Source of the DNA: Cypionkella psychrotolerans
GTDB taxonomy: Bacteria; Pseudomonadota; Alphaproteobacteria; Rhodobacterales; Rhodobacteraceae
Direction: 5' to 3'
Assembly: GCF_001294535.1 (NCBI RefSeq)
Contig: NZ_LGIC01000069.1
Location: forward strand, 1 to 64,000
Length of the DNA stretch: 64,000 nucleotides
The position numbers and the translations under genes are program-made. How positions within the stretch are numbered: position 1 is the stretch's first letter; the number at the start of each line of letters is the position of its first letter. Positions 27,903-58,856 of the stretch are shown here, in pieces. The notes beneath the pieces were generated by a model. The model did no database searches. It worked only from the letters and a program-made list of their open reading frames with translations, and was not told the DNA's origin.

Positions 27903-28091
27903 TCACGCTGGCGCATAGCCAACTTCGGTCAAGGCGTTGACCAACTGGTCGCGTGGAGCCGAAGATTTGACATCGACTTTGCGTGCGCCGGGATCTGCAT
28001 TAACTTCGGCGGCAGGATCCACCGACTGGATTGCCTTGGTCACGCTGCGTGCACAGCCGCCACAGGTCATGTTCTCAATATGGAACTGCAT
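27903..28091 (-). CDS. copZ: Copper chaperone CopZ (HMA domain)
   Basis: 62 residues forming a single heavy-metal-associated ferredoxin-like fold with ENMTCGGCARSV (Cys10, Cys13) and the terminal EVGYAP. It carries Cu(I) in the cytoplasm to CopA, encoded divergently 168 bases away. GAAGGAGG precedes the ATG at 28091. Copper control through the CueR-type element at 28129-28157 is likely. Confidence 0.95.
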   Translation of the reverse strand: MQFHIENMTCGGCARSVTKAIQSVDPAAEVNADPGARKVDVKSSAPRDQLVNALTEVGYAPA

Positions 28092-28128: not shown

Positions 28129-28157
28129 TATGGGGCTTCCCATCGTTGTAAGGTCAA
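28129..28157 (-). promoter_or_regulatory. CueR-type promoter for copZ-DUF305
   Basis: On the minus strand TTGACC (28157-28152) is followed after 19 bases by CATATG (28132-28127). The spacer holds the imperfect dyad CTTACAACGATGGGAAG. The overlong spacer with a dyad is the hallmark of MerR-family activation. It mirrors the copA promoter 40 bases away. Confidence 0.8.
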
Positions 28158-28194
28158 GAGCACAAACCCGTGATGGGCAAATCAAAATCAGGCC

Positions 28195-28225
28195 TTGACC
28201 TTACCATCATGGGAAGCCTTATCTC
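28195..28225 (+). promoter_or_regulatory. CueR-type promoter for copA-cueR
   Basis: TTGACC (28195-28200), a 19-base spacer and TATCTC (28220-28225). The spacer contains CTTACCATCATGGGAAG, a 17-base dyad with one mismatch. The arrangement matches CueR-driven copA promoters. Transcription would begin about 25 bases before the GTG start at 28260. Confidence 0.85.
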
Positions 28226-28259: not shown

Positions 28260-30743
28260 GTGAACATGCACGCGAAAACGCTACCGACTGCCGAGTCAGA
28301 AAAGTTTGTTCTCGAGGTCGAGGGTATGACCTGTGCCTCTTGCGTTGGTCGTGTCGAGCGCGCGCTGAAAGCAGTGCCGGGAGTTGAGACGGCATTCGTT
28401 AATCTCGCCACCGAACGGGCCGAAGTGACGGGTGCTGCCGTTGTTCGGGCGCTACTGATCAAGGCCGTGGAGGATGCGGGCTATGACGTTGCATCTCGTC
28501 CCGTTGACCTCGTGATCGAGGGGATGACCTGCGCGTCTTGCGTGGCCCGGGTGGAAAAAGCACTGTCCGCGGTTCCGGGCGTGACCTTTGCGGCAGTGAA
28601 CCTTGCGACCGAGCGGGCGACCGTAAAGGGCGCCGCCGATATTGCCGCCCTCGTCCGTGCGATAGAGGCGGCTGGCTATGAGGCGCATGCAGCAGCACCG
28701 GCCGCTGATGTCGCAGAAGAGACCGCGAGCAAGAAAGCCGCAGAAGAGGCCGCGCTCAAGCGGGATGTGCTCATCGCAGCGACTCTGACGCTGCCAGTCT
28801 TTGTGCTCGAAATGGGTGCGCACCTGTTCACCTGGGTCCACATGGCGGTGATGAGCACAATCGGCATGCAAAACAGCTGGTATCTTCAATTCGCACTGAC
28901 CACTGCAGTCCTCTTCGGCCCCGGCCTGCGTTTTTATCGCAAAGGCCTTCCGGCGCTTGCCCGACTTGCGCCCGACATGAACAGCCTGGTGGCGGTCGGC
29001 ACAATGGCTGCCTACGGCTATTCGCTGGTTGCAACCTTTGCCGCGGGTCTGCTGCCCGCAGGCACAGTCAACGTGTATTTCGAGGCGGCGGCGGTCATCG
29101 TCACGCTGATCCTGCTCGGTCGCTATCTTGAGGCCCGCGCAAAGGGCCGCACATCCGAGGCGATCAAGCGGCTAGTCGGCCTGCAGGCAAAAACGGCGCG
29201 CGTGACTCGGGATGGAACGATCACCGAGGTGCCCGTCTCCGAGGTGCGCATCAACGACGAGGTCGACGTGCGACCAGGGGAGCGGGTTCCGGTCGATGGC
29301 GAGGTCACGGCTGGCGCAAGCTGGATCGACGAGAGCATGATTTCCGGCGAGCCATTGCCCGTCGAGAAAACGGCCGGCAGTCAGGTGACAGGTGGCACCG
29401 TCAACCAGACGGGAGCCTTCAGTTTCCGTGCAACAGCTGTCGGCGAAGCAACAATGCTGGCACAGATTATCCGCATGGTCGAGGCTGCGCAGGGTGGCAA
29501 ACTGCCAATTCAGGCACTGGTGGACAAGGTAACGATGTGGTTCGTGCCCGCTGTCATGGCACTTGCGGCGCTGACCTTCTTCGTTTGGCTGGTGTTCGGG
29601 CCGGAGCCCGCCCTAACATTCGGCCTTGTCAATGCAGTTGCTGTCCTCATTATCGCCTGCCCCTGCGCGATGGGTCTTGCCACCCCGACCTCGATCATGG
29701 TCGGCACCGGGCGGGGGGCGGAACTCGGAATCTTGTTCCGCAAGGGCGAGGCGCTGCAAACCCTGCACGGCGTCAAAGTGGTGGCCCTCGACAAGACCGG
29801 CACGCTGACGATGGGCAAGCCGAGGCTGACCGATCTGGTGCTGGCACCGGACTTTGACCGTGCCTCTGTGCTGGCTGCCGTTGCGGCAGTCGAGGCGAAG
29901 TCGGAACACCCCATCGCCCGCGCCATTGTCGCGGCGGCAAGCGAGGAAGGCCTGGTGCTACCTGAGGTTACGACCTTTGATTCCGTCACCGGCTTCGGTG
30001 TCGCGGCGCAAGCGGGCGAGCAAAAGATCGAGGTCGGAGCCGACCGTTACATGATAAAGCTGGGCCTTGATGTCGCGCCCTTCGCCGCCGAGGCCGCGCG
30101 ACTGGGCGATGACGGCAAGTCACCGCTCTATGCTGCCATCAATGGAAAGCTAGCAGCAATCCTCGCAGTCGCCGACCCGATAAAGGAAACAACGCCGGAT
30201 GCGATCCGCGCACTGCATGCGTTGGGCCTCAAGGTCGCAATGATCACCGGCGACAATGCCCGCACCGCAAATGCCATCGCGCGGCAGCTTGGTATTGACG
30301 AAGTGGTGGCCGAAGTGCTGCCCGATGGAAAAGTGGCCGCAGTAAAGCGGCTGAAGGGGATGGGCACTCTGGCTTTCGTCGGCGACGGCATCAACGACGC
30401 ACCGGCGCTGGCCGAGGCTGATGTCGGCATCGCCGTTGGCACCGGCACCGATATTGCCATCGAGGCGGCAGACGTTGTTTTGATGACTGGCCGCCTGACG
30501 GCAGTGCCCGATGCGATTGCACTCTCCAAAGCCACCATGCGCAACATCCGCCAGAACCTGTTCTGGGCCTTCATTTATAACGCGCTCCTGATCCCGGTTG
30601 CCGCCGGTGCGCTGTGGCCCGCTTTTGGCCTGCTGCTTTCACCGATCTTTGCAGCAGCAGCGATGGCGCTGTCATCTGTTTTTGTCCTCGGGAATGCGCT
30701 GCGGCTGCGGCGCTTTGCCCCCTCGCAGGAGGTTGCGGTATGA
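28260..30743 (+). CDS. copA: Cu(I)-exporting P1B-type ATPase CopA
   Basis: 827 residues. There are two N-terminal HMA domains (MTCASC near 23 and 89), eight membrane helices, the CPC ion-binding motif (Cys467), DKTGTLT (Asp511), the HP locus SEHPIARAI and the hinge [20 protein letters not shown]. All hallmarks of Cu(I)-exporting P1B-1 ATPases are present. The GTG at 28260 is chosen because GAAGGAG lies seven bases upstream; an ATG at 28266 is the alternative. The stop overlaps the cueR start (ATGA). It is the intact counterpart of the relic at 1-1383. Confidence 0.97.
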
Positions 30744-31213
30744 ACATCGGTGAAGCTGCAAAGGCGTCGAGCGTTTCGGCCAAAATGATTCGCTACTACG
30801 AATCCGTCGGCCTTATCCCGGCAGCTGACCGGACGACATCTGGCTATCGGGTCTACTCCGCAACGGACGTGGAAATGCTGCGCTTCATTCGGCGGTCGCG
30901 CGATCTGGGCTTTACGGTTGAAAAGATCGAGGAGCTTCTTGCCCTTTGGCGTGACCGCTCGCGCCACAGCGCCGACGTCAAACGCATTGCTCTGGAACAA
31001 ATCGAGGGTCTTGAACGAAAGATACTGGAAATGCAGTCGATGATGGATTCGCTACGGCAGCTGGCTGATGCCTGTTGCGGTGACCATCGCCCAGATTGTC
31101 CGATCCTTGCGGATCTCGGTCGGGGTGCAACCCAACGGAATGAACAAGTCCGCACCCAGTTCAATGGGCTGTCATCGCTGCGAACGGCAGCCCAAGAACC
31201 CCACAGCCGATGA
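30740..31213 (+). CDS. cueR: CueR, MerR-family copper regulator
   Basis: 157 residues. The N-terminal winged helix-turn-helix ([26 protein letters not shown]), long dimerisation helix and metal loop CCGDHRPDC (Cys112 and Cys120, the same positions as in E. coli CueR) identify a Cu(I) sensor. It would activate the divergent promoters at 28129-28225 and probably the box at 24954. The C-terminus runs about 28 residues past the usual end ([12 protein letters not shown] and on), unlike typical CueR. That tail may be a slipped frame, because the next gene's start overlaps it. Confidence 0.94.
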
Positions 31214-31935
31214 CTTCGTCACGCGACCTTTCAGTCGCCTCCTACAATATTCACAAAGGCATCGGTACCGACCGGCGTCGTGATCTGGCACGGACCATGG
31301 CGGTGATTTCCGAGATCGGCGCCGATATTCTGGCATTGCAGGAGGCGGATACCCGATTTGGCACGCGCACCGGGCTGCTCGATCTGGAGAGTATCCGGCG
31401 TGACCTTGGCTTAATTGCGGTGCCTTTGAAAGGTGTCGGTGACGCGCATGGCTGGCATGGCAACCTGCTGCTGGTCCGCAATGCGTTGGTGCATGAAGTG
31501 CACCAACTGATCCTGCCTGGGTTTGAGCCACGCGGTGCGCTGGTGACGGATATGCTGATCGACGGGCAGCCTCTGCGGGTGGTGAACGCACATCTTGGGC
31601 TGTTGCCGGGCTCGCGCGCTGCGCAGGCCCGCGCCTTGTTGGACAAACTTGGCAGCCTCGAAGCGCGGCCGACTTTGCTGATGGGCGATTTAAACGAATG
31701 GCGCGGCAAAAGTGCCTCGCTAAAAACCCTCGGTGAGCAGTTCACTATCGGGCAATCGCGACCCAGTTTCCCCTCGCGATACCCGCTGCTGGCACTCGAC
31801 CGGATGATGACCTGTATTCAGGGCGAGCTTATGGATATTGCCACCCATGACAGCCCGTTGGCCCGCCGCGCCTCGGACCATCTGCCGATTACCGCCAGGC
31901 TGCGGCTGGTGCCGCAAAGCGTAGAGGGGCTGTGA
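31210..31935 (+). CDS. Endonuclease/exonuclease/phosphatase-family protein, copy 1
   Basis: 241 residues without signal peptide. EEP-fold catalytic motifs are in place: ASYNIHKGIG, ILALQEAD (metal-binding Glu), VVNAHLGL, MGDLNEWR and ASDHLPI. The family includes DNases, phosphoinositide and sphingolipid phosphodiesterases. The overlap with the downstream phospholipase-D gene (TGATG) suggests action on lipid or phosphodiester substrates. The ATG overlaps the cueR stop, so it is in the copper transcript. A paralogue with the same partner is at 62482-63228. Confidence 0.88.
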   Translation: MTSSRDLSVASYNIHKGIGTDRRRDLARTMAVISEIGADILALQEADTRFGTRTGLLDLESIRRDLGLIAVPLKGVGDAHGWHGNLLLVRNALVHEVHQLILPGFEPRGALVTDMLIDGQPLRVVNAHLGLLPGSRAAQARALLDKLGSLEARPTLLMGDLNEWRGKSASLKTLGEQFTIGQSRPSFPSRYPLLALDRMMTCIQGELMDIATHDSPLARRASDHLPITARLRLVPQSVEGL

Positions 31936-33485
31936 TGACAGCACTAGCCATGCAGGTTCTGCTCTGGATTGTGGTCGGCGCAGGTGCGATCGGCATAGCA
32001 TCCTGGCTGGCGCACTGGTCCTACCGTCGGTTCCTCCGCCGGGCGCGCGGACCTGCATCAAAGTCGCTTGGTCGTGGAGAGGTGCCGACAAAACTCGATA
32101 CGCTGCTCGATCCCTTGGCAGCACAGAACCAGGGCCAATCCGGCCTTGCGACATTGCTTGACAATTCCGACGCATTCGCCACCCGCGCCCTGTCGGCGGC
32201 GCAGACGGGGCGCAGCCTTGACCTGATGTATTACATCTGGCGCACCGACGTGACCGGTTGGCTGCTGCTTGACGCGCTGGTTTTGGCGGCAGACCGGGGC
32301 GTGCGCATTCGCCTGCTGCTGGACGATGTGAATGTGCAGGGATTTGACCCGGCTTTTCTGGCGCTGACCCAACACAAGCTCATCGAAGTGCGGCTGTTCA
32401 ATCCGACGCGCAACCGGGGCCATGCCGTGCGGCGCGCCATCGAGATGGTTCTGGGACTGGCAAGGTTCAACCGCCGCATGCATGGCAAACTGTGGATCGC
32501 GGACGGAAGGTTGGCGATCATCGGCGGGCGCAATATTGGCGATACGTATTTTGGCGCGGTCGATGCCGGGACGCGCAACTCGGTTGACGCCGACATGCTG
32601 CTGGTCGGGCCGAAGGTGGATGAGGTGGCGGCGCTGTTTGACAGCTATTGGAATCTTGGGCTCTCGATGCCGATCCTTGCCCTCTGGCCCGGGTTCAAGA
32701 TGAATCTGGCCAAATTTTGCACCCGTTTGGCCTGCGAGGTCCGCAGCCCTGCGTCGCGCCGCTACCTCGCGCGCACGCTGGACGGGCGTACGGCAGAGTC
32801 AGTGCTGGCCGGGCAGCTGCACTGGACCGACAAGGTGCAGCTTCTTGCCGACCCGCCGGACAAGGCGTATGGCAACCACTCTGCCCCCTGGATGTCGACG
32901 GCCATCGCCGACATACTGCTGCGGGCCAAGTCCGAGGTTCGGCTGATCACCCCATATTTCGTACCCGGTCGGGCGGGCATTGAGGGGTTGACCGTACTTG
33001 CGAAGCGGGGTGTCAGGGTAAACCTGTTGACCAATGCGCTGTCGGCGACCGACATGCTGCTGGTTTATGGCGCCTATCGGCGTTACCGCAGCACACTTCT
33101 GAAGGCAGGGGCTGTGATCCATGAATTCTCGCCTGCGCCCAAGCCAAATCGCAAACGTGATGTGCTCCATTCGAAAGTGTTCGTGATCGACGGGGTGCAG
33201 GCCATCGTCGGCTCGCTGAATTTCGATCTGCGTTCGGCCTTCACCAACACGGAATTGGGGCTGTTGTTCGAACACCCCGCGCTGGTGGCTGACATCACCC
33301 GGATGATCGACGCGCTGAGCGCCCCGGATCAGGCCTATGCCGTATCGCGCCCCGAACATGCGCTGCACTGGAGCGTTGCGCGTCCCGGTCTGCCAACGGT
33401 CATGTTCGTGGAACCTGAGGCGAGCGCACCGCAGCGGGCTATTTCGTGGCTTGTCGGGCTGTTGCCGATTCAGGCCTACCTATGA
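31935..33485 (+). CDS. Phospholipase-D/cardiolipin-synthase-like protein, copy 1
   Basis: 516 residues: one N-terminal helix (LLWIVVGAGAIGIASWLAHW) and two HKD motifs, HGKLWIADGRLAIIGGRN (His183) and HSKVFVIDGVQAIVGSLNFD (near 411). This is the organisation of bacterial cardiolipin synthases of the PLD superfamily (ClsA/ClsC-like). Possible reactions are transfer or hydrolysis of phosphatidyl groups in the inner membrane. It starts inside the EEP stop codon. Copy 2 begins at 63225. Confidence 0.9.
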   Translation: MTALAMQVLLWIVVGAGAIGIASWLAHWSYRRFLRRARGPASKSLGRGEVPTKLDTLLDPLAAQNQGQSGLATLLDNSDAFATRALSAAQTGRSLDLMYYIWRTDVTGWLLLDALVLAADRGVRIRLLLDDVNVQGFDPAFLALTQHKLIEVRLFNPTRNRGHAVRRAIEMVLGLARFNRRMHGKLWIADGRLAIIGGRNIGDTYFGAVDAGTRNSVDADMLLVGPKVDEVAALFDSYWNLGLSMPILALWPGFKMNLAKFCTRLACEVRSPASRRYLARTLDGRTAESVLAGQLHWTDKVQLLADPPDKAYGNHSAPWMSTAIADILLRAKSEVRLITPYFVPGRAGIEGLTVLAKRGVRVNLLTNALSATDMLLVYGAYRRYRSTLLKAGAVIHEFSPAPKPNRKRDVLHSKVFVIDGVQAIVGSLNFDLRSAFTNTELGLLFEHPALVADITRMIDALSAPDQAYAVSRPEHALHWSVARPGLPTVMFVEPEASAPQRAISWLVGLLPIQAYL

Positions 33486-33586
33486 TGTCGGCCAGGCTCG
33501 GGCTGACACCGCGAATGCCGTCATCGGACCAGTTGCCAGATTCGGCCTGTGGTGGCAGTGCAGCATCCAACACGCCGCCTCGATTG
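33480..33586 (-). pseudogene. C-terminal relic of a multicopper oxidase
   Basis: The minus strand encodes EAACWMLHCHHRPNLATGP and MTAFAVSA. The oxidase at 13313 ends EAARWMLHCHHMPHLSTG and MMTEFAVSA, so the correspondence is nearly residue by residue. The copper-ligating HCH is kept but nothing upstream is. The relic is joined head-on to an MFS relic at about 33590 and marks an old deletion junction. Confidence 0.85.
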
Positions 33587-33589
33587 CAT

Positions 33590-33852
33590 TGCGGCGGGTG
33601 TTACTGTTCGGGTTCACTGGATTCAGCGCCACCCTGATCGCCTCTGCCTTTTTCGGGGCGTTGGCGGTGGTCTATTGTGAACGGGACCCAAGCGGCGTGT
33701 TCACGGCAGCGATAACACCGGTCGCTATTGCCGTTGTCACAAATTTCGTCGGACAAAGAATTACTTGGACGCCATCTCTCGTTCTTATCGATGGCGGGCA
33801 TCTCGTTGCCATTTTCGACCGACATCTGGGGCTGTCTCGCGCCGCTGCTTGA
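33590..33852 (+). pseudogene. Relic of an MFS transporter
   Basis: RRVLLFGFTGFSATLIAS, then VYCERDPSGVFTAAITPVAI and AVVTNFV correspond to RRPVLLIGLVGFAATMLAF, VYVERALSGLFAAAVTPVAL and AAVTDVS in the intact transporter at 57599-58846. Only about 60 codons are recognisable; the rest, up to the stop at 33852, is not. The same transporter sits beside the second ATP-grasp gene, so this was once part of the same module. Confidence 0.8.
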
Positions 33853-33913
33853 CAGCCTTTGTGGTTAGCCGAATATTTAATCCGGAGAGATGGCCTGAAC
33901 AAATGCCTCCGCG

Positions 33914-35194
33914 TCAGACAATAAGCACCGGCGCAAAGCCACCGCCCGGTGTGCGGAAATTCGTGGTCTGGCCCTGATAAAGCCGGGCCGCAACGAGCGG
34001 CGTTTGCGCCCGGTAGGTATAGAGCCGAACATCGACCTTGCGCAGCGTGGGCACGCCATCGAGCCGGATCATCCGTTGGCCAGGGGCGGCAATGGTCTGC
34101 GCCACATACTCGGCTTGCAGAATATCGGCCCAGACCGATTTCGTCAGCTTGTCGCCGGATACACCGCCTTGCCCCGACACCGGCTTGAAGAACAACTGCC
34201 GCCGTGCGGTCCACAACTCATCCGCGTTCCGGGGCGTCACCATCCGGGTCTGTGGTATCCCAGACAGCCGCGCAATCAGCGAGGGCGCGACCCCAAGCCC
34301 GGCCAGCGCCACCGAGTCTGACAACAAAGTCAGATTGCGCTTATGCGCCAGAGCCGCGTGATTGTGCGGGTTCGGGGTCAGCACCACGGACCCATCAAGG
34401 TAGGCGCGGCGCAGGGCGGCGTGGCTGGGTTCAGCCAGTGCGAAATCGACGAGTCGATCATAGACCAGATCGATCTGTAAATCGCCGAAGAACAGCCCAG
34501 TGACACGAATTTCCAACGCGCCCGGGTCGCAGATCACCGTATCAATCCCCGCCCAGATCAGCATCTGCTGCGCCAGCACAAATTCGGGATACAAATACTG
34601 CCCCTCAGGCCCATCGTCGACAATGGCGATCCGGCGCAGCGGGGCGTCCCCGCGCTGGCGCTGCCATTCTGCGCGGAACATGGCCAGAACATGCGCCTCA
34701 AACCCCAGCGTCAGCCCATCCTCTGGGCGGTGCACCAGTTCGGCGCAACATATCGATTGCGCCCGGGCCAACAGGGCGTTCAGGAACGCGCCCCCGGCAT
34801 TGGTATTCACCTCAATCAGCTTGGGGTCGTCGTCTCCCAGATGAAAATCATAGCCCATCAGCGCGCCCGCCGGACCGGGATCAAGCTGTGAAATCTCCGG
34901 CGCCCAGGCCATGACCGCTTCGCGAAAGGTCGGGATTTGCGCCACCGCCTCGATTGCTGTGACGGTAGTTAGCATGGCCTCCAGTGCCGCGGCCGGCAGA
35001 AACACCGGTACGTTGGAAAACAGATGCGGATGGCTCTCAGCCATCTGGAAGGACAGACACGGGTTCCCCGAATCGGTCGCAAGAGCCCGATCAAGTTTCG
35101 CCTGATCAATTGTGATGCAGAAACAGCTCTGATTCAGGTCCGCCGGGACCAGACCGGGCGTGCCGTGAAGCAAGGTATCACACAAGACGGGCAT
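33914..35194 (-). CDS. ATP-grasp-like protein of unknown function, copy 1
   Basis: 426 residues. Conserved blocks shared with copy 2 (55930) are LNQSCFCIT, GALMGYDFHL, PKLIEVNTNAGGAFLNALL (Glu128/Asn130), LYPEFVLAQQ, RRQLFFKPVSG (Lys337) and QGQTTNFRTPGGGFAPVL. The acidic ExN block comes before the Lys block, the reverse of classical ATP-grasp ligases, which suggests circular permutation. Copy 1 has lost three residues in the glycine loop after the Lys (GQGGVSGDKL against GHGGKAVYRGDKL) and may be impaired. AGGAAA precedes the ATG at 35194. An FNR box lies about 100 bases upstream. Confidence 0.75.
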   Translation of the reverse strand: MPVLCDTLLHGTPGLVPADLNQSCFCITIDQAKLDRALATDSGNPCLSFQMAESHPHLFSNVPVFLPAAALEAMLTTVTAIEAVAQIPTFREAVMAWAPEISQLDPGPAGALMGYDFHLGDDDPKLIEVNTNAGGAFLNALLARAQSICCAELVHRPEDGLTLGFEAHVLAMFRAEWQRQRGDAPLRRIAIVDDGPEGQYLYPEFVLAQQMLIWAGIDTVICDPGALEIRVTGLFFGDLQIDLVYDRLVDFALAEPSHAALRRAYLDGSVVLTPNPHNHAALAHKRNLTLLSDSVALAGLGVAPSLIARLSGIPQTRMVTPRNADELWTARRQLFFKPVSGQGGVSGDKLTKSVWADILQAEYVAQTIAAPGQRMIRLDGVPTLRKVDVRLYTYRAQTPLVAARLYQGQTTNFRTPGGGFAPVLIV

Positions 35195-35399: not shown

Positions 35400-35760
35400 G
35401 CAATTGCCGGCGTGCGGCGGTCGAGATAACGGCCGCGCCCTTCAGCGCCACAGTGACTTACGACCATGATCGGTGCTCAAACATCTTTGCTTGCCCGACC
35501 ACTTGGGGGTGCCCCCTGACGCTCCAAAGGTCCACTCGCCAGCGGTGGCTGCGAGACGCCCCATTTGGACCATGCCGGAATTGACGGCCGCAACGATGGC
35601 GGCGACTGAAAGAGCCCGGCCGACAAAAAGGGCGCATGGCCAAGGACGCGTTGGCCCATGAGATGGGCCACGCGTCCGGCATGGATACGCAGGCTATGGT
35701 CCGCGACATGCGCAGCCGGTCATTTATCTGCCCGTTTTTCACAGTCTGCGTAGGATGGGC
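35400..35760 (+). pseudogene. Relic of the CopB-type ATPase N-terminus
   Basis: HEMGHASGMDTQAMVRDMRS at 35660-35725 mirrors [20 protein letters not shown] in the intact ATPase at 50129. A weaker match (VEITAAPFSATVTYD against [15 protein letters not shown]) lies near 35420-35465. The first membrane helix fails after FFTV. No catalytic domain remains. The rest of the 35195-35812 interval holds the FNR box and nothing else I recognise. Confidence 0.75.
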
Positions 35761-35812: not shown

Positions 35813-36742
35813 TCATCCGCCCAGGACGGCAAGCACGACCCCGATTATCGTCAGGACCATCCCTGCCATCGCAAGCGGGGTGAGGCTCTCGCCCAGAAAG
35901 GCGACGCTGATCGCGACTCCCAGAAGCGGTACGAGGAAGTTGAAGGCGTTCGCGGTGTTCAGCGGACAGTCATTGAAAACAGCTATCCACAGCGTGAATG
36001 TCACTGCCGTCCCTCCAATCCCCAAGACGATCACCAGCGCAAGAAATCGGGGCTCCAGCACCACTGAAGTGAACGGTTCGGACACGAAGGCAAGAATGGC
36101 GAGAGGCACCGAGCCAAGCAGAAGTTGAACCGCTGCCGCAGCGATCGGGTCGACATCCGAAGCAAATCGCTTCGTCAGGGCGTTGCCGAAAGCGCTTCCC
36201 CCAGTCGCCGAGACAATCGGCGCAATTCCCGCGACCGCCGTGGTCCCCCCAGCCGAAATGTCCTGAAGCGTCATCGCAGTTAGTCCGGCAAGGGCTACGG
36301 ACATCCCGATAGCCTGCCATTTTCCAATGGGCTGGCCGAACATCACCAACGCCAGAAGGCCCGCGACGATGGGTTGCGTTCCCGCAACCACGGCGGCAAT
36401 GCCCGGCGCGATCAGGCCACCCGCACCAAACACGCTCGCGAAGCCCATGGTCGTAGCGGAAAAGCCCGACCCCCCAGCCAGCAACCAGAGCCGTCTTGTT
36501 TGGGGAAACGGGCGGCGCAGCACCAAAGCCAGCATCAGCAGCGAAAGCCCGGCAACGCCCGCACGGAGCGCGGCAAACTGGAACGGAGGTGCGCGGGCAA
36601 GTCCAACCGACAGAAGCGGGTAGCAAAGCGCAGTTAGCGTCGCGACCGCGAGCAGGCTGGCGACCGTTCCGCGACCAAGCGGTTTGGAATAGTCACCCGG
36701 CAATGGTGATTGCCGGTGCAACGGTCGCGTATTCCAATGCAT
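35813..36742 (-). CDS. EamA/DMT-family transporter
   Basis: 309 residues with ten predicted helices in two EamA repeats (FAALRAGVAGLSLLML; AANAFNFLVPLLGVAISV-type ends). The family exports small metabolites, often nucleosides, amino acids or sugars. The ATG at 36742 follows GGGGAAA and overlaps the phosphorylase gene by 50 bases, so it is translated from the same message. A nucleoside or base substrate would suit its neighbours, but this is only a guess. Confidence 0.88.
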   Translation of the reverse strand: MHWNTRPLHRQSPLPGDYSKPLGRGTVASLLAVATLTALCYPLLSVGLARAPPFQFAALRAGVAGLSLLMLALVLRRPFPQTRRLWLLAGGSGFSATTMGFASVFGAGGLIAPGIAAVVAGTQPIVAGLLALVMFGQPIGKWQAIGMSVALAGLTAMTLQDISAGGTTAVAGIAPIVSATGGSAFGNALTKRFASDVDPIAAAAVQLLLGSVPLAILAFVSEPFTSVVLEPRFLALVIVLGIGGTAVTFTLWIAVFNDCPLNTANAFNFLVPLLGVAISVAFLGESLTPLAMAGMVLTIIGVVLAVLGG

Positions 36743-38216
36743 AGGCAATTTCCCCGGCGCTCCCCGCGTGAAGGCGAAACAGCGGTTGTCCCTTCACGAC
36801 TGTGTCGCCGACCCGGACCGCAAGGGTAAGCCCTGCGGCGAGATTGCCGGGCGCCCCTGCCAGCTTCGCCAGCCGCGCCAGTTTCCGGTTATCGATGGCA
36901 GCAACGCTGCCGGCAGCGGTGGACACCACTTCATGGCTCTGCACCGCTTCAGGCGGATCGCGCAGGCCACCCTGCGCCTCGCAGATGGCGGCGAATTTCG
37001 CCCAAGCGCGACCGTCTGAAAGCACAGCCCGCGCGAGGTCGGAACCGGTGCCGGGCGCGGCCACCCCGCCAGTTTCCAGCAACGTCGCCGCAAGGGCAAG
37101 TGCGCGTTCGGCAAGGTCCTGTGGTGCCCCGAAATCGCGTCTCAGGACCGAAAGGACATCACGTGCCTCTGGTGCCGGGCCAATGCCGCGGCCAACCGGT
37201 TGGCTGCCATCGGTCAGCAGGCAGGCAACGTCGAGGTCCAGCGCGGTGCCAACCATTAAAAGCCGCCCAGCAAGTGCCCGAGCGGACTCAGCGGTCCTCA
37301 TCTTGGCAGTGGGGCCGACCGGGATGTCGATCACGACATGGGTAGATCCGGCGGCAACCTTCTTCGACAGAACAGATGCAATGAGCTGGCTTTCAGCATC
37401 GATGTCGATCTCGCGTTCGATCCGCACGAACGCATCATCCGTCGGGCTGAGCCGGACCGCGCCACCCCAGACGACGCAGCCGCCCTCTGCCTCGACCACG
37501 CGGCGAATCGCGGGCAGGTCCAGATCGACGGGCGCCAGCGTTTCCATCATATCTGCAGTCCCTGCGGGCGAAGTAATGGCACGCGATGACGTCTTCGGGA
37601 TCACAAGGCCACATGCCGCAACGATAGCTACGACGATCGGCGTCGTCCGGTTGTCGGGAAGCCCACCGACACAGTGCTTGTCCATCACGCGCGGGACATC
37701 CCATTTCAGGCGTTCTCCGACCGCGACCATCGCGCGGGTCAACGCGATTGTCTCTGAATCATCGAGCGGCAGCGCGGCACTTGCTGACAGGAATGCCGAG
37801 ATCTGAATATCGCTGAGACGACCGGCCTGGACATCCCGCAGGATGGACACAAAGTCAGTCTCCTCGAGATGGCCACCGTAAAGCTTGCGGCGCACCAGAG
37901 ACATCGAGCCCGCTGCAGATGCGGGCAGAACTATGGCCTCGGCCCCCTCTGTGGCACCGAGGCGCGCCCATGCGTCTTCGGACAGTGCGATTTCGTGCAA
38001 GTTCAGCACCGTTCCATCTACGGGCAGAAGCCGGGCAGTAACGCGACGCCCACCGGATTCGATTTCAACACGCGCACGGGCGTGCAGCCCTTCGGACCGG
38101 CAGACTTGGCAATCGGATCGCATCATGGCAATAGCTTCACCCTGGCTGTGCAGGCCAATCCGCAAAAGCCGCATCGGCGTTGGTGCCTCGTAGACGTCGC
38201 CATTCCTTTCGCTCAC
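36693..38216 (-). CDS. AMP/thymidine phosphorylase (archaeal AMP phosphorylase family)
   Basis: 507 residues. An N-terminal domain of about 85 residues precedes the phosphorylase core with DKHCVGGLPDNRTTPIVV, KTSSRAITSPAGTAD and GTALDLDVACLLTDGSQPVG. The extra domain and these motifs place it with archaeal-type AMP phosphorylase (AMP + Pi to adenine + ribose 1,5-bisphosphate) rather than classical DeoA. The GTG at 38216 overlaps the RNase stop (GTGA) and has GGAG eight bases upstream. With PRPP synthetase two genes away it suggests nucleotide salvage into pentose bisphosphates. Confidence 0.87.
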   Translation of the reverse strand: MSERNGDVYEAPTPMRLLRIGLHSQGEAIAMMRSDCQVCRSEGLHARARVEIESGGRRVTARLLPVDGTVLNLHEIALSEDAWARLGATEGAEAIVLPASAAGSMSLVRRKLYGGHLEETDFVSILRDVQAGRLSDIQISAFLSASAALPLDDSETIALTRAMVAVGERLKWDVPRVMDKHCVGGLPDNRTTPIVVAIVAACGLVIPKTSSRAITSPAGTADMMETLAPVDLDLPAIRRVVEAEGGCVVWGGAVRLSPTDDAFVRIEREIDIDAESQLIASVLSKKVAAGSTHVVIDIPVGPTAKMRTAESARALAGRLLMVGTALDLDVACLLTDGSQPVGRGIGPAPEARDVLSVLRRDFGAPQDLAERALALAATLLETGGVAAPGTGSDLARAVLSDGRAWAKFAAICEAQGGLRDPPEAVQSHEVVSTAAGSVAAIDNRKLARLAKLAGAPGNLAAGLTLAVRVGDTVVKGQPLFRLHAGSAGEIAYALEYATVAPAITIAG

Positions 38217-39571
38217 AGTGTGAACTCCTGATCCTGCCTCGCAGCATCCGCGCGCCATCCAAGTTCGCGCTTGATCTTCACGCGCAGTGCCTCGGCTGCC
38301 TCCGGCTCGCCGTGGACGATGGTGACGTGCTTGGGAGCGGATCGGAACCCGCCCATCCAGCGGAGCAACTCACCCGCATCAGCATGGGCGGAAAGCATCG
38401 CAAGGTTCGCCACTTCGGCCCCTACCGGCACCGATTCGCCAAACATCTTCACTTCGGATGCGCCATCGACCATCGACCGCCCGCGCGTGCCAGCCGCCTG
38501 GAAACCGGAAAAGAGGATGAGGTTGCGCCGATCAGGGGCAAAGGCGCGGATGTGGTGCAGGACGCGTCCCCCGGTTGCCATGCCGCTAGCCGAAATCACG
38601 ATCTTCGGGTAGGGATTGGCGGTAATTGCCTTCGATTTCTCGACATCGCGGACATAGGTTGCGATGGCGCAGGCGTCGCGGCAGGTGTCGGCGGACATGC
38701 GGTGGTCATTGGGGTAGGTGCAAAGCAGTTCACTTGCATTGATCGCCATCGGACTGTCGAGGTAGACTGGCAAATCCCGGAACCAACCACCCTGCTTCAA
38801 TTTCCAGATGTAATAGAGCAGGCTTTGCGCCCGACCGACAGCGAAGGCCGGAATGACCACGGTGCCGCCCCGCGCGGCGGTGCGTGAAATCAAGGTCGCC
38901 AGCGCCTCGGCCGGGTCGGTCTGATCATGGATGCGGTTGCCGTAGGTTGATTCAATGACAATATGATCCGCTTCTTCCACCGGCTCCGGGTCAACCATGA
39001 CTTCGTCTCCGTAGCGGCCCAGATCGCCAGAGAACACCACCTTGCGCCCACCCCAGTCGATGCTGGCAGACGCCGCGCCCAGAATGTGACCCGCACGCCG
39101 ATACGTCAGCGCGGCGTCCCCCAGGATTGCGGTCGCTTCATGGAAATCGACGTCGACAAACGCCTCCAGCGCGCGCTCGGCGTCCTTGACGCCGTAAAGA
39201 GGCCGCGCGGGCTTGTGCTTGGTGTAGCCCCTTCGGTTGGCATATTCCGCGTCTTTTTCCTGCAGAAAGCCGCTGTCGCGCAGGATCAGCTCTGCCACGG
39301 CACGGGTTGCGGGTGTGGCGTAGATCGGGCCGCGGAATCCGTCGGCCACCAGTTTTGGAAGATAACCCGAATGGTCTAGGTGCGCATGGGTTAGCACGAC
39401 CGCACCGATCGACCGCGGTTCGACCGGAAACGGTGCCCAGTTGAGGTCGCGCAGATTCTTCAGGCCTTGAAACATGCCGCAATCCACCAGAATGCGCTGG
39501 TTGCCACGGGTCAGAAGATGGCGCGAGCCGGTGACGGTTCCGGCCGCTCCGTGCGTTGTAAGGGTCAGCAT
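38213..39571 (-). CDS. Beta-CASP metallo-beta-lactamase RNase-like protein
   Basis: 452 residues. Metallo-beta-lactamase motifs THAHLDHSG, GAASASIDWGGRKVVFSGDLG and the beta-CASP part (STYGNRIHD, SASGMATGGRVLHHI, HADAGELLRW, VHGEPEAAEAL) mark the CPSF73/Ysh1-like exonuclease group (COG1236). Such enzymes process or degrade RNA. GGAG precedes the ATG at 39571. It is coupled to the phosphorylase, as if RNA breakdown fed nucleotides directly into phosphorolysis. Confidence 0.92.
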   Translation of the reverse strand: MLTLTTHGAAGTVTGSRHLLTRGNQRILVDCGMFQGLKNLRDLNWAPFPVEPRSIGAVVLTHAHLDHSGYLPKLVADGFRGPIYATPATRAVAELILRDSGFLQEKDAEYANRRGYTKHKPARPLYGVKDAERALEAFVDVDFHEATAILGDAALTYRRAGHILGAASASIDWGGRKVVFSGDLGRYGDEVMVDPEPVEEADHIVIESTYGNRIHDQTDPAEALATLISRTAARGGTVVIPAFAVGRAQSLLYYIWKLKQGGWFRDLPVYLDSPMAINASELLCTYPNDHRMSADTCRDACAIATYVRDVEKSKAITANPYPKIVISASGMATGGRVLHHIRAFAPDRRNLILFSGFQAAGTRGRSMVDGASEVKMFGESVPVGAEVANLAMLSAHADAGELLRWMGGFRSAPKHVTIVHGEPEAAEALRVKIKRELGWRADAARQDQEFTL

Positions 39572-39608
39572 CAACGATCTCCTGTCAGAGCCGAAGTCGG
39601 CATGTGAT

Positions 39609-40502
39609 TCATCGCGAAGGCAGCTCCGCCAGTGCGTGAGCCACCAGCGGGGCAAGCGGGACCGCATTCGAGGGATGCGGCACGCTATCGCAGGACACCA
39701 CACGCGCCGAGACCGCCTGAAGCCGCGCGAAGGCGTCGCCGGCGAAAAGCGCATGGACCACGGCACAGACCGGCCGCGCCATGCCCCGCGCGGCAAGAAG
39801 GTTCGCAGCCGCGATCAAGGTGCGCCCGGACGAGGCGATATCGTCGATCAGGACCGGGGTGCAGATGGCATGTCCTGTAAGGTCGGGTAGTTCGACAGAC
39901 ACGTCGAAGTCACCGCGCCGGGTCTTTTCCATCACCGTCCAGGGCGCACTGATCCGTTCGGCAATCGCTTGGACCCATTGCGCGCTTTCGGAATCCGGGC
40001 CGATGAGAAGCGGGCGTTCCACCTCGGCCAGGATCCAGTCGGCCAGCGCCGGGGCCGCCTGCACCGCTGCGGCCGGAATGTCGTAGAGGTCAGACAGCGC
40101 AGTGCGGCGGTGCAAATGCGGATCCACCGTCACAAGCCCATCGAACAGTGACGAGACGAGCCGTGCGAACGTGTCGGACGTCACCGCTTCGCCAGGTTTA
40201 AACGCCTTGTCCTGCCGCATGTAGGCAAGATAGGGCGCAACCAAACGGACACGCGCTGCCCCCTGCGCGCGGGCCGCGTCGGCGGCAAAGGCAAGGCGGA
40301 GGAAATCCGGATCCGGTCCGGACAGCGTGGCAACCACATCGACGGCACGACTGTTCACGGACGACAACAGTCGCAGATAGGTCTCGCCGTCTGGAAAGCG
40401 GCGCGTTTCAATCGCGCCTACGTCGCCGCCCCCGGCAAAAGCAAGCTCGCGGGCGAAGTTCTCATTCCCGGGCATGGCCAAGATCATCGGAATAGGAGAC
40501 AT
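39609..40502 (-). CDS. Ribose-phosphate pyrophosphokinase-like protein
   Basis: 297 residues with FPDGETYLRL, YMRQDKAFKPGEAVTSDTFA, the DPHLHR divalent-metal region and the PRPP loop VLIDDIASSGRTL. The PRPP loop has SSGRT where TGGT-like sequences are usual, and the MRQD/KPGE form resembles archaeal enzymes. Expected reaction: ribose 5-phosphate + ATP to PRPP + AMP, or the reverse at high AMP. The ATG at 40502 has AAGG eight bases upstream. Confidence 0.85.
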   Translation of the reverse strand: MSPIPMILAMPGNENFARELAFAGGGDVGAIETRRFPDGETYLRLLSSVNSRAVDVVATLSGPDPDFLRLAFAADAARAQGAARVRLVAPYLAYMRQDKAFKPGEAVTSDTFARLVSSLFDGLVTVDPHLHRRTALSDLYDIPAAAVQAAPALADWILAEVERPLLIGPDSESAQWVQAIAERISAPWTVMEKTRRGDFDVSVELPDLTGHAICTPVLIDDIASSGRTLIAAANLLAARGMARPVCAVVHALFAGDAFARLQAVSARVVSCDSVPHPSNAVPLAPLVAHALAELPSR

Positions 40503-40551
40503 CTTTGCTGCCTTCACTGCTTATCAAGCTGGCTCAAGTCCCGCCCGGCCA

Positions 40552-49899: not shown

Positions 49900-50088
49900 A
49901 TGAACCAGATTTTGAAGCCTGCGCATGATCACAGCGGCCATGCGCAATCGGACAGCCATTCCGCTGCGGGCGGATGCTGCGGCGGTGCCGAGGCCAAGCC
50001 GCAGGCGACTGCCGACGCCGCGCCGCAGCATCCGGCCGCCGACAGCAAGACCAAACCGGCAGGATCTTCAGGCTGCTGCTGCGGCTGA
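49900..50088 (+). CDS. Cys/His-rich mini-protein (metallothionein-like)
   Basis: 62 residues: [21 protein letters not shown] at the N-terminal half (shown in part), an Ala/Pro/Lys spacer, and SSGCCCG at the C-terminus. Five Cys and six His in 62 residues indicate soft-metal binding. CAGGAG lies seven bases before the ATG at 49900. It is 40 bases upstream of the CopB-type ATPase, so it may be a cytoplasmic copper buffer or a delivery protein for that pump. Confidence 0.8.
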
Positions 50089-50128
50089 CCCTACCGCCCG
50101 CCCTTTGACGCGACAGCAAGGACAAAAG

Positions 50129-52510
50129 ATGACCAGAACAGCTTCACTTGACGTTGGTGCCTATTTTGACGGGCTGGGCCATCTTGGTGTCGTAAAGCAA
50201 TTGCTGACCGAACCAGGCGTGCAGGAGGCAAGCTCCAATCCTGGTTCGGCCTCGGTCACAGTGCGGTTTGACGAGGGCGTTACCAGTGTCGGCAAACTGC
50301 AGGCGGTGATCGTGGCGTGCGGCCAGCATTGCCGGGGCGAAAAGGTGCCCGCCCATATCTGCGCGCCGGACGACATGCCGGGAATTCCTGCGCCGACCCC
50401 GGCGAAGGCCGATCCCCACGTTGGGCATAACATGGCGGGCCCTCATGCGGGGCATGACATGGCGGGCATGGCAAAAACCGGCACCGCCCGCGATGAGATG
50501 GCGGCCGAAATGGGCCATGGCGCAGGTGGCGACATGCAATCCATGGTGCGTGACATGCGCAACCGCTTCTTTGTCGCGCTGGTATTTACCGTCCCGATCT
50601 TTATCTATTCCCCGATGGCGGGCCTGTTCAAAGCCCCGCCGCCGCCGTTCGGCCTGCGGCTGGATGTATGGTTGCTGATCCTTGGCAGCGCCGCCGTGCT
50701 CTACCCAAGTTGGCCGTTTTTTGTCGCCGCCGCGCGGGCGCTGCGCAATGGCGTGCTGAACATGGCGGTGCTGGTCGTGCTGTCGGTCGGCACCGGCTAT
50801 GTATTCAGCCTAGCATCGGTTTTGTTCTTCCCGGGCGTGCAGTTCTTTGAAGCGGTCGCCGTGCTGCTGGTGTTCATCCTGCTGGGTCACTGGCTGGAAA
50901 TGCGGGCCCGGGCCGGCGCGTCTGAGGCGATCCGGGCCCTGTTGGACCTCGCCCCGCCAAAGGCAAATGTCCTGCGCAAAGGTGTCGAAGTCGAGGTGTC
51001 CACCGCCGAGGTGCTGGCAGGCGAGATCGTCGTAATCCGCCCCGGCAACAAGATCCCCGTCGATGGCGAAGTCACCGAAGGCACCTCATTGGTCGACGAA
51101 TCCATGCTGACCGGCGAGTCGATGCCGGTGAATAAGACTGTCGGCAGTCAGGTGATCGGGGCAACGATCAACAAGAGCGGCACTTTCCAATACCGTGCCA
51201 CCAAGGTTGGGGCCGATACCGCGCTGGCCCAGATCGTCAAGCTGGTCCAAGAGGCGCAGAATTCCAAGGCCCCGGCGCAACTGCTGGCCGACCGCGCCTC
51301 ACAATGGTTGGTGCTGGTGGCGATCGTGGTCGGCCTTGCCACCTTTGCGGTCTGGTATTGGTGGCTGGGCGCACCGCTGCTGTTTGCCCTCACCCTGACT
51401 ATCACCGTCTTTGTTATCGCCTGCCCCGATGCGCTTGGCCTTGCTACGCCGATGGCGGTCATGGTCGGCACGGGGCTGGGCGCGATGAACGGCATCTTGT
51501 TCAAGAACGCCAGCGCGCTGGAGGATGCAACCAGACTCGATGTCATCATCTTTGACAAGACCGGCACCCTGACCATGGGTCAGCCCAAGGTTGTCGAAGT
51601 GGTTGCCGCCGAAGGCCGCAGCGAGGACGAGGTTGTGATGGCGGCGGCGGCAGTGGACAAGGGGTCTGACCACCCGATGGCCGTTGCCATCGTCGAACGG
51701 GCCGCCAACCTGACCCTAGGTGCGATGTCGGCGTTCGAGACGCTCGACGGTCGCGGGGCCAAGGCCGAAGTCGCGGGCAAGTCGGTGCTGGTCGGCAACC
51801 GGCGCCTGATGGACGAAGAGAAGGTGGCGCTTGGCGCGCTGGCGGACCGCGCCGAGACGCTCAAGGGCGCCGGCCGGACGGTCGTGCATGTCGCCGAGGG
51901 CGGCCAAGTTCTGGGCCTGATCGCGATTGCCGACGCCTTGCGGCCTACCGCGAAAGCGGCGGTTGCCAAGCTGCGCGAACGCGGCGTGCAGGTGGCGATG
52001 CTGACCGGCGACAATGCGGGGACTGCGGCGCGCATCGCGGGCGAACTGGGCATCGATATCGTTTTGGCCGATGTGCTGCCGGGGCAAAAGGCCGAGAAGG
52101 TCAAGGAGTTGCAGGCGCAGGGCAAAAAGGTCGGCATGGTGGGCGACGGGGTCAATGACGCCCCCGCCCTGACCCAAGCCGACGTCGGTTTTGCCATTGG
52201 CGCAGGCACCGACGTGGCGATGGAAAGCGCCGATGTGGTGCTAATGAAAAGTGATCCCTATGACGTGGTGGGGGCAATCATTCTATCACGCGCCACCCTG
52301 CGAAAAATGCACCAGAACCTGTTCTGGGCGGTGGCTTACAACGTGGTGGCCTTCCCGGCCGCTGCGGGTGTGTTTTTCCCCTATGTCGTCAGCCCCGAAA
52401 TTGCGGCCCTCGCGATGTCAGGCAGCTCTGCCCTGGTCGCCGTCAACGCGCTTCTCCTCAAGAGAACCCGGCTTGAGGGGATCGCAAAGTCGCAACCTGC
52501 TACGACCTGA
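50129..52510 (+). CDS. CopB-type heavy-metal P1B ATPase with CPD motif
   Basis: 793 residues. The N-terminal domain is a degenerate HMA-like fold without its Cys motif ([11 protein letters not shown]), then a His/Met-rich stretch ([18 protein letters not shown]). Eight helices, DKTGTLTMG (Asp476), SDHPMAVAI and [20 protein letters not shown] follow. The ion-site motif in helix 6 is CPD (Cys432-Pro-Asp), not the CPH of CopB or CPC of CopA. Probable substrate is copper or silver from context. A relic of a sister copy lies at 35400-35760. Confidence 0.93.
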
Positions 52511-52579: not shown

Positions 52580-53635
52580 ATGACCCAACACACAAAACTG
52601 CGGATCGCGGTCAACGGCTATGGTGTGATTGGCAAGCGAGTTGCGGACGCAGTCTATCAGCAGATCGACATGACGCTTTCCGGTGTTGCTGACATCGGCA
52701 CCGATTGGCGCCCACGCATCGCAACGCACAAGGGTTTCGATCTGTTTGGTGCCACGCCAGACGCCGTACAAGCGATGCGCGCTGCAGGAATGCAGGTCAC
52801 GGGAACGCTCGATGATTTGCTGGAAGTGTCGGATCTGGTGGTCGACTGTACCCCCAAGCATGTCGCTTCCCGAAATGTCGAACTCTACCGTCAGCGCGGT
52901 CTGAAATTCATCCTGCACGGCGGCGAAAAGCACGACGTGACCGGTCACTCCTTTGTCGCCGAGGCGAATTTCGCCAGTGCGCTTGATCGCGACTGCACGC
53001 GTGTCGTTTCCTGCAACACCACCGCGACGGTGCGCACCCTGTCTGCGCTGAAACGGGCGGGTCTTTTACGCCGAGCACGCGGCACTTTGCTGCGCCGCGC
53101 CACAGACCCTTGGGAAAGTCATCTGGGCGGAATCATGAACACCTTGCTGCCCGAACCGGAAATTCCGAGCCATCAGGGCCCGGACGCGCGCACCGTCGAT
53201 CCGGACCTGGACGTGATAACGATGGCGGTCAAGGTTCCTGAGACGCTGGCCCATCTGCATTACTGGGCCGTTCAACTGACCCGCCCGGCCAGCAAGGACG
53301 AAGTTCTCGCCGCATTCCGCACATCTTCCCGGATCGCCTTGATCGGCCAGGATACAGGACTGACCGCGATCAATACGGTCAAGGAGTTTGCAGCTGACCT
53401 CGGGCGTCCGCACGACGACCTCTATGAGGTGGCGCTGTGGGCAGACATGCTCAAAGTCGAGGGCGACGAGCTTTTTTATGCCTACATGGTCGACAATCAG
53501 GCCATCGTGATCCCTGAAACGATCGACGCGATACGGGCGCTGACCGGCAGTATCCGAGACTTCCGGGACTCGATCGAACGAACCGATGCGGCCCTTAATA
53601 TCGGGATCATGTCACGGGCTCTTGGTCCGGCATGA
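52580..53635 (+). CDS. Archaeal-type (type II) glyceraldehyde-3-phosphate dehydrogenase
   Basis: 351 residues. VNGYGVIGKRVADAV is the nucleotide-binding loop. The catalytic Cys145 is in SCNTTATVRTL, and HQGPDARTVDPDLDVITMA plus KVPETLAHLHYWAV are signatures of the archaeal GAPDH family, distinct from bacterial GapA. Phosphorylating oxidation of glyceraldehyde 3-phosphate with NAD(P) is expected. It follows the CopB ATPase by 69 bases. Archaeal-type enzymes also occur in the block at 36-40 kb. Confidence 0.9.
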   Translation: MTQHTKLRIAVNGYGVIGKRVADAVYQQIDMTLSGVADIGTDWRPRIATHKGFDLFGATPDAVQAMRAAGMQVTGTLDDLLEVSDLVVDCTPKHVASRNVELYRQRGLKFILHGGEKHDVTGHSFVAEANFASALDRDCTRVVSCNTTATVRTLSALKRAGLLRRARGTLLRRATDPWESHLGGIMNTLLPEPEIPSHQGPDARTVDPDLDVITMAVKVPETLAHLHYWAVQLTRPASKDEVLAAFRTSSRIALIGQDTGLTAINTVKEFAADLGRPHDDLYEVALWADMLKVEGDELFYAYMVDNQAIVIPETIDAIRALTGSIRDFRDSIERTDAALNIGIMSRALGPA

Positions 53636-54875: not shown

Positions 54876-54977
54876 AAATTTTGCTTGCCCACTGCGACCA
54901 ATTCCCGTCGCTGCGGGCGAACTTTCCAGCATATGCAAGTCGATAACTCCACACCAGATATTCAAGGGATACAGGTG

Positions 54978-55781
54978 ATGAGCAAGAAATCGAAGAAGCC
55001 CGCCAATACCAAGAATGCGATTGTTGAACCAGAAGACTACAAATCCGCTCTGCACGATTTGCAAATTGAACTGGTCAAGCTGCAACGGCATCTGATCAAG
55101 AATGACCTGCGGATTCTCATCCTGTTCGAGGGTCGCGATGCCTCGGGCAAGGATGGCGTGATCAAGCGGATCACCGAACACCTCAGCCCGCGCGACACCC
55201 GCGTTGTCGCACTTGGCAAACCGTCGAACCGCGACACGCACTCGTGGTATTTTCAACGCTACGCTGCCCAACTACCGGCAACCGGCGAAATGGTCCTGAT
55301 GAACCGCAGCTGGTACAACCGCGCCGGTGTGGAAAGGGTGATGGGGTTCTGCCCCAAGACTGAACACGAGGAGTTCATGCAATCCGTCTTGCCGTTCGAG
55401 CGGCTGCTCGTCAACTCGGGCACGCAGGTGTTCAAATACTACCTCGATATTTCGAAACTCGAACAGAAAAGTCGCTTGGAGGCGCGTCGTGACGATCCGC
55501 TCAAGCAATGGAAAGTCAGCCCGATCGACAAGACCGCGCTGCGCCACTGGGATGACTATTCGACGGCGCGCAACGAAATGTTCGCGCGCACCCACAGCGA
55601 CGACCTGCCATGGCATGTGGTGCGGGCCGATGACAAGAAACAGGCCCGGCTGAACGTGATCCGTCACCTGATGTCACGCGTTGATTGCCCTGAGAAAGAC
55701 AAGCATCTGGCGAAAGCCGACCCCGAAACCGTTTTCGACTATGCCAAGGAGCATGTGCAAAGCGGTGCCATTGCACCGTAG
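54978..55781 (+). CDS. ppk2: Polyphosphate kinase 2
   Basis: 267 residues. The PPK2 P-loop FEGRDASGKDG (about 51-60), the lid region LSPRDTRVVALGKPS, and MNRSWYNRAGVERVMGFC are all present. It transfers phosphate between polyphosphate and nucleotides; single-domain members of this form usually make ATP or GTP from polyphosphate. The ATG at 54978 begins the Lys-rich N-terminus; an in-frame ATG at 54933 is an alternative. It joins arcC and GAPDH as a respiration-independent ATP source here. Confidence 0.95.
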   Translation: MSKKSKKPANTKNAIVEPEDYKSALHDLQIELVKLQRHLIKNDLRILILFEGRDASGKDGVIKRITEHLSPRDTRVVALGKPSNRDTHSWYFQRYAAQLPATGEMVLMNRSWYNRAGVERVMGFCPKTEHEEFMQSVLPFERLLVNSGTQVFKYYLDISKLEQKSRLEARRDDPLKQWKVSPIDKTALRHWDDYSTARNEMFARTHSDDLPWHVVRADDKKQARLNVIRHLMSRVDCPEKDKHLAKADPETVFDYAKEHVQSGAIAP

Positions 55782-58846: not shown

Positions 58847-58856
58847 ACGGCGCGGC

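Follow-up and report, generated by a model that had tools for sequence, protein, structure and literature searches.

Resistance to copper, arsenic and mercury is commonly put down to efflux, oxidation, reduction or methylation. Analysed here is a stretch of 64,000 nucleotides from Cypionkella psychrotolerans (the window; NCBI RefSeq assembly GCF_001294535.1, contig NZ_LGIC01000069.1, positions 1 to 64,000 of the forward strand), in which two blocks, A and B, each hold a gene for an ATP-grasp-like protein (hereafter ATP-grasp) and a gene of the EEP family that overlaps a gene for a phospholipase D (PLD)/cardiolipin-synthase-like protein. Among the closest described systems, copA-cueR copper operons share with the window the CueR-type sites and the copA and cueR genes, here overlapping EEP-PLD, and ars operons share with relatives of the locus an ArsR-type gene that overlaps or abuts the ATP-grasp gene; unlike the present loci, neither kind of operon was found to be mentioned with this ligase in the available parts of the literature surveyed. 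The repeated genes of the window are diverged copies of one copper-resistance island, not recent duplicates. The island itself is ordinary in kind, and its new part is the ligase: ATP-grasp is a member of an unnamed family with a predicted glutathione-synthetase-like fold. The reading favoured here, at a probability of about 0.6, is that ATP-grasp in these island copies acts as an accessory ligase of thiophilic-metal resistance that makes a small thiol or peptide ligand, the chelator-synthesis step being the least certain part. Gene content, gene overlaps, CueR-type sites, a recurrent copper, arsenic and mercury context, the predicted fold and the cysteine pattern suggest this reading.

The two ATP-grasp copies are homologous and 69% identical, and a third copy, C, lies on another contig of the genome (C20:3228-4523). 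No Pfam or NCBIfam model matched the protein at its cut-off, and at E 0.1 five Pfam families matched any of 20 members; of these, the circularly permuted ATP-grasp type 2 family (PF14403) matched 9 of the 20, although copy B scored 25.1 bits against a cut-off of 32. A sequence search of the PDB gave no relative (best E 0.76, unrelated). An AlphaFold2 model built with 19 sequences (pLDDT 84.6, pTM 0.88) was most similar, by Foldseek against the PDB, to homoglutathione synthetase (3kal, E 1.7e-15, TMq 0.63) and human glutathione synthetase (8fbz, E 2.6e-15), and the matches at E 1e-10 to 1e-15 comprised homoglutathione and glutathione synthetases, glutathionylspermidine synthetase, YgiC/YjfC and Cp1B, with PsnB as a weak match. 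ATP-grasp thus shares its overall predicted fold with the eukaryotic-type enzymes, but differs from them in sequence (about 13% identity), in four conserved cysteines of its own and in its place in bacterial metal islands. With the glutathionylspermidine synthetase/YgiC/YjfC group (PF03738) and Cp1B it shares the fold class and a weak collinear alignment over an E-x-N motif. In the part of PMC12568646 that is available, an enzyme of a different pathway, which forms amides, is given the same fold neighbours; the substrates of this fold thus vary. Cp1B appears there as a ligase of the E-64 pathway, and a reference title cited there names YgiC/YjfC as peptide-spermidine ligases. At the superfamily level, the model points to a carboxylate-amine ligase. 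A description of the family was not found in the available parts of the literature surveyed on ars operons, copper resistance, circularly permuted ATP-grasp proteins, YgiC/YjfC and arsenosugars. The accessible part of PMC10092412 places an ATP-grasp gene, not equated with the present family, among the differentially transcribed genes of Nitratiruptor under cadmium and copper.

ATP-grasp occurs in 4 of the 390 genomes searched in the order; in the class the count is 7 of 385 and in the phylum 121 of 398, in the last case mostly as a shorter chromosomal subfamily. Furthermore, 33 plasmid records match by tblastn, 31 of them over at least 80% of the query; the gene is labelled as a (conserved) hypothetical protein in 31 of the 33 and has no feature in the other two. 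Four cysteines, C39 and C41 (CxC) and C164 and C165 (CC; numbering of the copy B open reading frame, ORF), are invariant in 20 aligned homologues. Among 72 distinct sequences, with one further sequence lacking the anchor motif set aside, both pairs are present in 50 and both absent from 18; 4 have CxC alone (two of these are likely over-extended ORFs), and none has CC alone. The 18 belong mostly to the shorter subfamily and are clearly homologous. Four members (L047, L058, L059 and L060) are 536-569 residues long, compared with the usual length of about 430, and carry a C-terminal extension, visible in the alignment for L047.

The setting of the family was examined on plasmids and in genomes. 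In the annotated surroundings of 23 of the 33 plasmids, copper genes or a heavy-metal P-type ATPase lie near ATP-grasp in 17. Genes of the mer type are found near it on two (Pseudomonas pMR68 and Stutzerimonas S116, of which S116 is also one of the 17), and RND or CDF efflux genes on three others (Sulfuricella, Sphingobium and Acidovorax); a Halomonas KO116 plasmid shows DUF305 and cytochrome c only, and a Vreelandella plasmid has a broken ATP-grasp copy and no informative annotation. Because such plasmids are rich in metal genes, placement was tested within each of them, for listed positions only and for 21 plasmids, excluding one with broken ATPase pieces about 2 kb away (W06) and one that is truncated (W23). 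On 9 of the 21, ATP-grasp has a copper-type ATPase (TIGR01511, E 1e-60) no more than 5 kb away (2.9 expected, P 6e-4), and on 11 no more than 10 kb away (4.6 expected, P 1e-3); when four unlisted ATPase matches (W04, W10, W15) are placed at random, the expectations become 3.0 (P 9e-4) and 5.0 (P 2e-3).

In genomes sampled evenly across the taxonomy, 23 loci were chosen blind to their neighbours: the class and phylum matches outside this genome at E <1e-130, together with G1068 and the order-level G276 and G287, leaving out a second partial match in G663 and the partial G281. With reference metal genes taken from similar plasmids and ars loci, listed metal genes were found at 8 of the 23 loci and in 1 of 20 control regions hand-placed in the same genomes (P 0.019; two of these were short, 1.3 and 10.1 kb, and some regions ended at contig ends), and with a narrower list at 7 of 23 and 0 of 20 (P 0.008). 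A further 17 genome-contig loci, found with copy B peptides and therefore clade-biased, contain ars genes in 13 cases and an ArsR-type gene just upstream of ATP-grasp in 14. ArsH, ArsB, ACR3, ArsI and ArsR-type proteins score above NCBIfam cut-offs in the examples L025, L028 and L038, with ArsC-like and ArsK-like proteins below. In L024 and L025, the ArsR-type gene and the start of ATP-grasp share four bases, and in L028 and L032 ATP-grasp begins two bases after that gene; L117 likewise has an overlap at the ATP-grasp start, with an ArsR-type protein that scores 52.4 bits against a 55-bit cut-off. On the plasmids of Mesorhizobium INR15 and Rhizobium lusitanum, a CueR-type site starts 81-90 bases before DUF305 in a DUF305-ATP-grasp string. 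Among 17 stretches upstream of other ATP-grasp genes, a near-perfect site was found only in Caulobacter pCB4, between copA and ATP-grasp, where it is directed towards copA.

A possible course of action can be proposed for ATP-grasp as a resistance ligase. It could link a carboxylate to an amine at the expense of ATP, and polyphosphate kinase 2, encoded next to copy B, may help to supply that ATP. The product might be a small cysteine-containing or glutathione-derived ligand, or a modified peptide, that binds Cu(I), As(III) or Hg(II); the four conserved cysteines may themselves bind metal, and transport of the product or its complex may fall to neighbouring MFS proteins. An MFS partner had been postulated by the sequence-only reading, an earlier model-made note on this DNA, and ATP-grasp does adjoin an MFS gene in B, C and a congener (G1124) and, at 12 of 15 short-subfamily loci, an MFS gene of another type. 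In a wider form, the proposal would be of a widespread unnamed family of ligases that, under CueR or ArsR control, produces on demand a dedicated thiol or peptide ligand of low molecular weight; this chemistry, with an MFS protein as the partner that carries the product, would be common to copper, arsenic and mercury islands and a bacterial counterpart of homoglutathione and phytochelatin chemistry. This form is tentative. If true, a ligase common to these contexts, with metal regulators adjacent, would indicate an overlooked chelation chemistry in plasmid-borne islands, and the gene is defined for assay.

Several results weigh against the favoured reading. No glutathione-synthetase model is among the Pfam families listed for the 20 members at E 0.1, nor is PF03738 listed; a profile comparison (hhalign) of eight family sequences with PF03738 proteins gave a probability of 1.7% and E 0.03, and because of this weak comparison and the missing Pfam match the link to glutathione-synthetase-like enzymes is one of fold. 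The cysteine pattern mostly splits two clades and thus reflects few events. Both cysteine pairs are missing from the short subfamily, and none of its six larger regions holds a listed metal gene. CueR-type sites are absent from the stretches scanned upstream of ATP-grasp copies A, B and C. The looser CueR consensus, applied with up to 3 mismatches, matched the window 6 times (both copA-region sites included) against 1.88 expected, and 4 of 100 shuffles reached 6. A tighter CueR-type pattern was written after the window's two sites were known; in favour of the reading, it finds only those two in the window, on average none in 30 random sequences, and sites in 7 of 73 scanned sources and 0 of 20 control regions. 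Finally, 15 of the 23 neighbour-blind loci have no listed metal gene to a distance of about 9 kb, or less where a contig ends, and some ATP-grasp genes lie in DinG/MoeA-like or sugar-phosphate contexts.

These last contexts, including L022, L026 and L119, together with neighbouring energy genes and the 15 loci that lack listed metal genes, would suit an ATP-grasp that travels with metal islands as a passenger, being a housekeeping or general-stress ligase that has no resistance role. That it is such cargo is rather unlikely: on plasmids its distance to copper-type ATPases is shorter than random placement would give, CueR-type sites face its gene string twice, and at four loci it overlaps the ArsR-type gene or follows it at two bases. 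Even as cargo, the family would deserve a name. At L022, L026 and L119, which are chromosomal, ATP-grasp follows a gene for what is presumably a DinG-like helicase and precedes presumed MobB/MoeA-like genes. Less probable still is an ATP-grasp that modifies a peptide, a protein or a polyamine and makes no metal ligand, the cysteines then forming a structural or regulatory site. YgiC/YjfC and Cp1B and, weakly, PsnB as fold neighbours speak for this; on the other hand, no small precursor gene was recognised beside ATP-grasp, though no search aimed at one was made.

The sequence-only reading had joined EEP, PLD and ATP-grasp into a single pathway for which it knew no described counterpart. The EEP-PLD pair itself does have one. 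YbhP is taken here to be an EEP-family protein. In the ybhP-clsB-ybhN operon of enterobacteria, a small gene is followed by the gene for a PLD-type cardiolipin synthase, as described in the available parts of PMC9241728 and PMC10100675. The window likewise has an EEP gene and then a PLD gene, but it differs from the operon in that its PLD scores 93.8 on the ClsB equivalog model, with a cut-off of 281, and in that the pair stands behind copA-cueR. No YbhN was recognised after copy A, where an MFS relic and ATP-grasp were, and no YbhN model was run.

The tie of this pair to ATP-grasp was examined in 44 ATP-grasp-bearing genomes or records (the 17 genomes of the genome-contig loci, 23 plasmids, 3 relatives and this genome), searched with a PLD alignment (A2) at E 1e-20. 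PLD matched in 10 and lay within 30 kb of ATP-grasp in 3, namely this genome, a Hoeflea plasmid and Sulfuricella pSCD, which has PLD alone, directly upstream of ATP-grasp; the congener is a fourth case. On pSCD, annotated F0F1-type ATP synthase genes follow (L043:9097-19369). In Croceicoccus the PLD match is 206 kb away, and an annotated cls gene at 6.3 kb was missed by the search; in six genomes (G281 and five Polaromonas) the match is on contigs other than that of ATP-grasp. EEP or PLD was found near ATP-grasp at none of the 23 neighbour-blind and none of the 17 genome-contig loci. On these counts the three genes are rejected as a conserved unit. A survey of the genus found ATP-grasp in 2 of 15 genomes, both with PLD within 5.5 kb (at copy B, EEP is within 5.3 kb and PLD right behind). 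EEP-PLD is adjacent without ATP-grasp in at least four Sinorhizobium records, outside the 33 plasmid records, among 60 of 359 and 60 of 413 matches listed; three of the four look near-identical. Because the pair is scarce near ATP-grasp elsewhere and is found without it, EEP-PLD with ATP-grasp is a lineage-specific association within one island. A pathway of phosphodiester cleavage by EEP, group transfer at the membrane by PLD, ligation by ATP-grasp and export by MFS is therefore highly improbable, even with the genes within 5.5 kb of each other in both window blocks, the Hoeflea plasmid and the congener, these four being one protein lineage and so not independent. What stands of the earlier interpretation is the carboxylate-amine ligase fold, the copper setting, since both blocks are copper islands, and the MFS neighbours.

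For copy A, the EEP-PLD pair closes a copA-cueR-EEP-PLD string in which each junction is a 4-base overlap (Table 1), as is that of EEP and PLD in copy B. Upstream of the string are two CueR-type sites, one directed towards the CopZ-like gene and one towards copA; this site and the overlapping copA-cueR are those of a CueR-regulated copper operon, and copy A EEP-PLD is likely under copper control. From the protein families and the clsB operon, copy A EEP-PLD probably remodels or repairs envelope phospholipid (or cardiolipin) under copper stress, as a ClsB pair would.

The same earlier reading had set down that, should EEP-PLD and ATP-grasp seldom be neighbours elsewhere, the pairing would be just one segmental duplication. 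The first is largely the case; the second is wrong. Copies A and B are 69% (EEP), 59% (PLD) and 69% (ATP-grasp) identical, and EEP-PLD points towards ATP-grasp in A and in the same direction as ATP-grasp in B, which rules out one recent segmental duplication; moreover, the Hoeflea plasmid and the congener carry the same genes. The genome holds three diverged island pieces, A (decayed), B and C, and the module therefore appeared to be present twice. C and B align in collinear blocks that share about 72-83% DNA identity, and contig C20 starts where, judged against B and the congener, EEP-PLD would lie beyond. A third PLD-EEP pair, in reversed order, is on contig C61, with identities of 34-35% (PLD) and 44-45% (EEP). 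In the congener, judged by similarity to the window and C20 genes, about 30 kb hold a MerR-type gene, EEP and PLD (95% and 88%, respectively, to those of copy A), a multicopper-oxidase-like gene, DUF302, MFS, ATP-grasp (82% to copy C), PPK2, MBL, PRPP synthetase, AMP-phosphorylase-like, beta-propeller and CopB genes, and more. The MFS and CopB relics reported for block A, with intact genes in block B, are real but are small fragments. ATP-grasp copy A may be impaired, because three residues are gone from a segment kept by the other 19 of 20 aligned sequences.

Table 1. Features of the window, with positions, strands and the evidence for each
Feature	Position	Strand	Evidence
CopZ/MerP-like heavy-metal-associated small protein (presumed from its sequence), divergent from copA	27903..28091	-	ORF; CueR-type site at 28158 (-) faces the gene
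CueR-type operator-promoter, facing the CopZ-like gene	28129..28158	-	pattern scan
CueR-type operator-promoter, facing copA-cueR-EEP-PLD	28194..28223	+	pattern scan
copA, copper P-type ATPase	28266..30743	+	TIGR01511 586.8 bits, above cut-off; frame opens at 28170, ATG 28266 the likelier start
cueR-like MerR-type regulator (CueR presumed from sequence and operator)	30740..31213	+	ORF; 72% to a congener gene
EEP-family protein, copy A	31210..31935	+	PF03372 57.1 bits
PLD/cardiolipin-synthase-like protein, copy A	31932..33485	+	PF13091 (PLDc_2) 116.7 bits
MFS relic, two overlapping fragments in different frames	33592..33805	+	tblastn with intact MFS: 33592-33795 (49%), 33722-33805 (46%), both +
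ATP-grasp, copy A	33914..35185	-	ORF 33914-35323; lacks three residues of conserved segment
CopB-type ATPase relic, 45 residues, 51%	35618..35752	+	tblastn
Thymidine/AMP phosphorylase-like, beta-CASP MBL-like protein, ribose-phosphate diphosphokinase	36693..40517	-	NCBIfam
CopB-type copper P-type ATPase, block B	49925..52510	+	TIGR01511 586.4 bits
Type II glyceraldehyde-3-phosphate dehydrogenase-like protein	52580..53635	+	PF02800; 73% to an annotated type II enzyme
YNCE-like beta-propeller protein	53769..54875	+	family match
Polyphosphate kinase 2 (PPK2)	54885..55781	+	PF03976 315.8 bits
ATP-grasp, copy B, intact, CxC and CC cysteines	55930..57219	+	ORF 55885-57219; likely ATG 55930
MFS transporter, intact	57599..58912	-	PF07690 113.2 bits
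DUF302 protein	58857..59243	-	PF03625 82.5 bits
EEP-family protein, copy B	62482..63228	+	PF03372 61.5 bits
PLD, copy B	63225..64000, runs past the window to contig position 64775 (complete on contig)	+	ORF and family match

Besides the window (54885-57219), PPK2 adjoins or lies near ATP-grasp repeatedly, in L020, L033, L035, L047, L120 and L167. Cyclopropane-fatty-acid synthase genes are within about 8 kb of ATP-grasp in L049, L054 and L114 (annotated in part and otherwise presumed from the sequence), and a link to membrane lipids is possible. At three loci of one family (L129, L131 and L132), the short subfamily adjoins TIGR04283 and TIGR04282 genes, arsenosugar biosynthesis glycosyltransferases by NCBI name and not by demonstrated function; at loci of other families (L082-L096), an MFS gene is in the 1.5 kb flank in 12 of 15 cases. 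With regard to a possible ArsJ-type arsenate system of GAPDH and MFS, the intact MFS of the window matched tetracycline and multidrug models below their cut-offs, and none of the 25 families listed out of 34 was an ArsJ model. The TIGR01511 copper P-type ATPase model has 16 matches at E 1e-60 in this genome, some below cut-off. Between DUF302 and EEP copy B, an ORF of 453 amino acids (60926-62287) without a Pfam match resembles, by eye, an insertion-sequence transposase.

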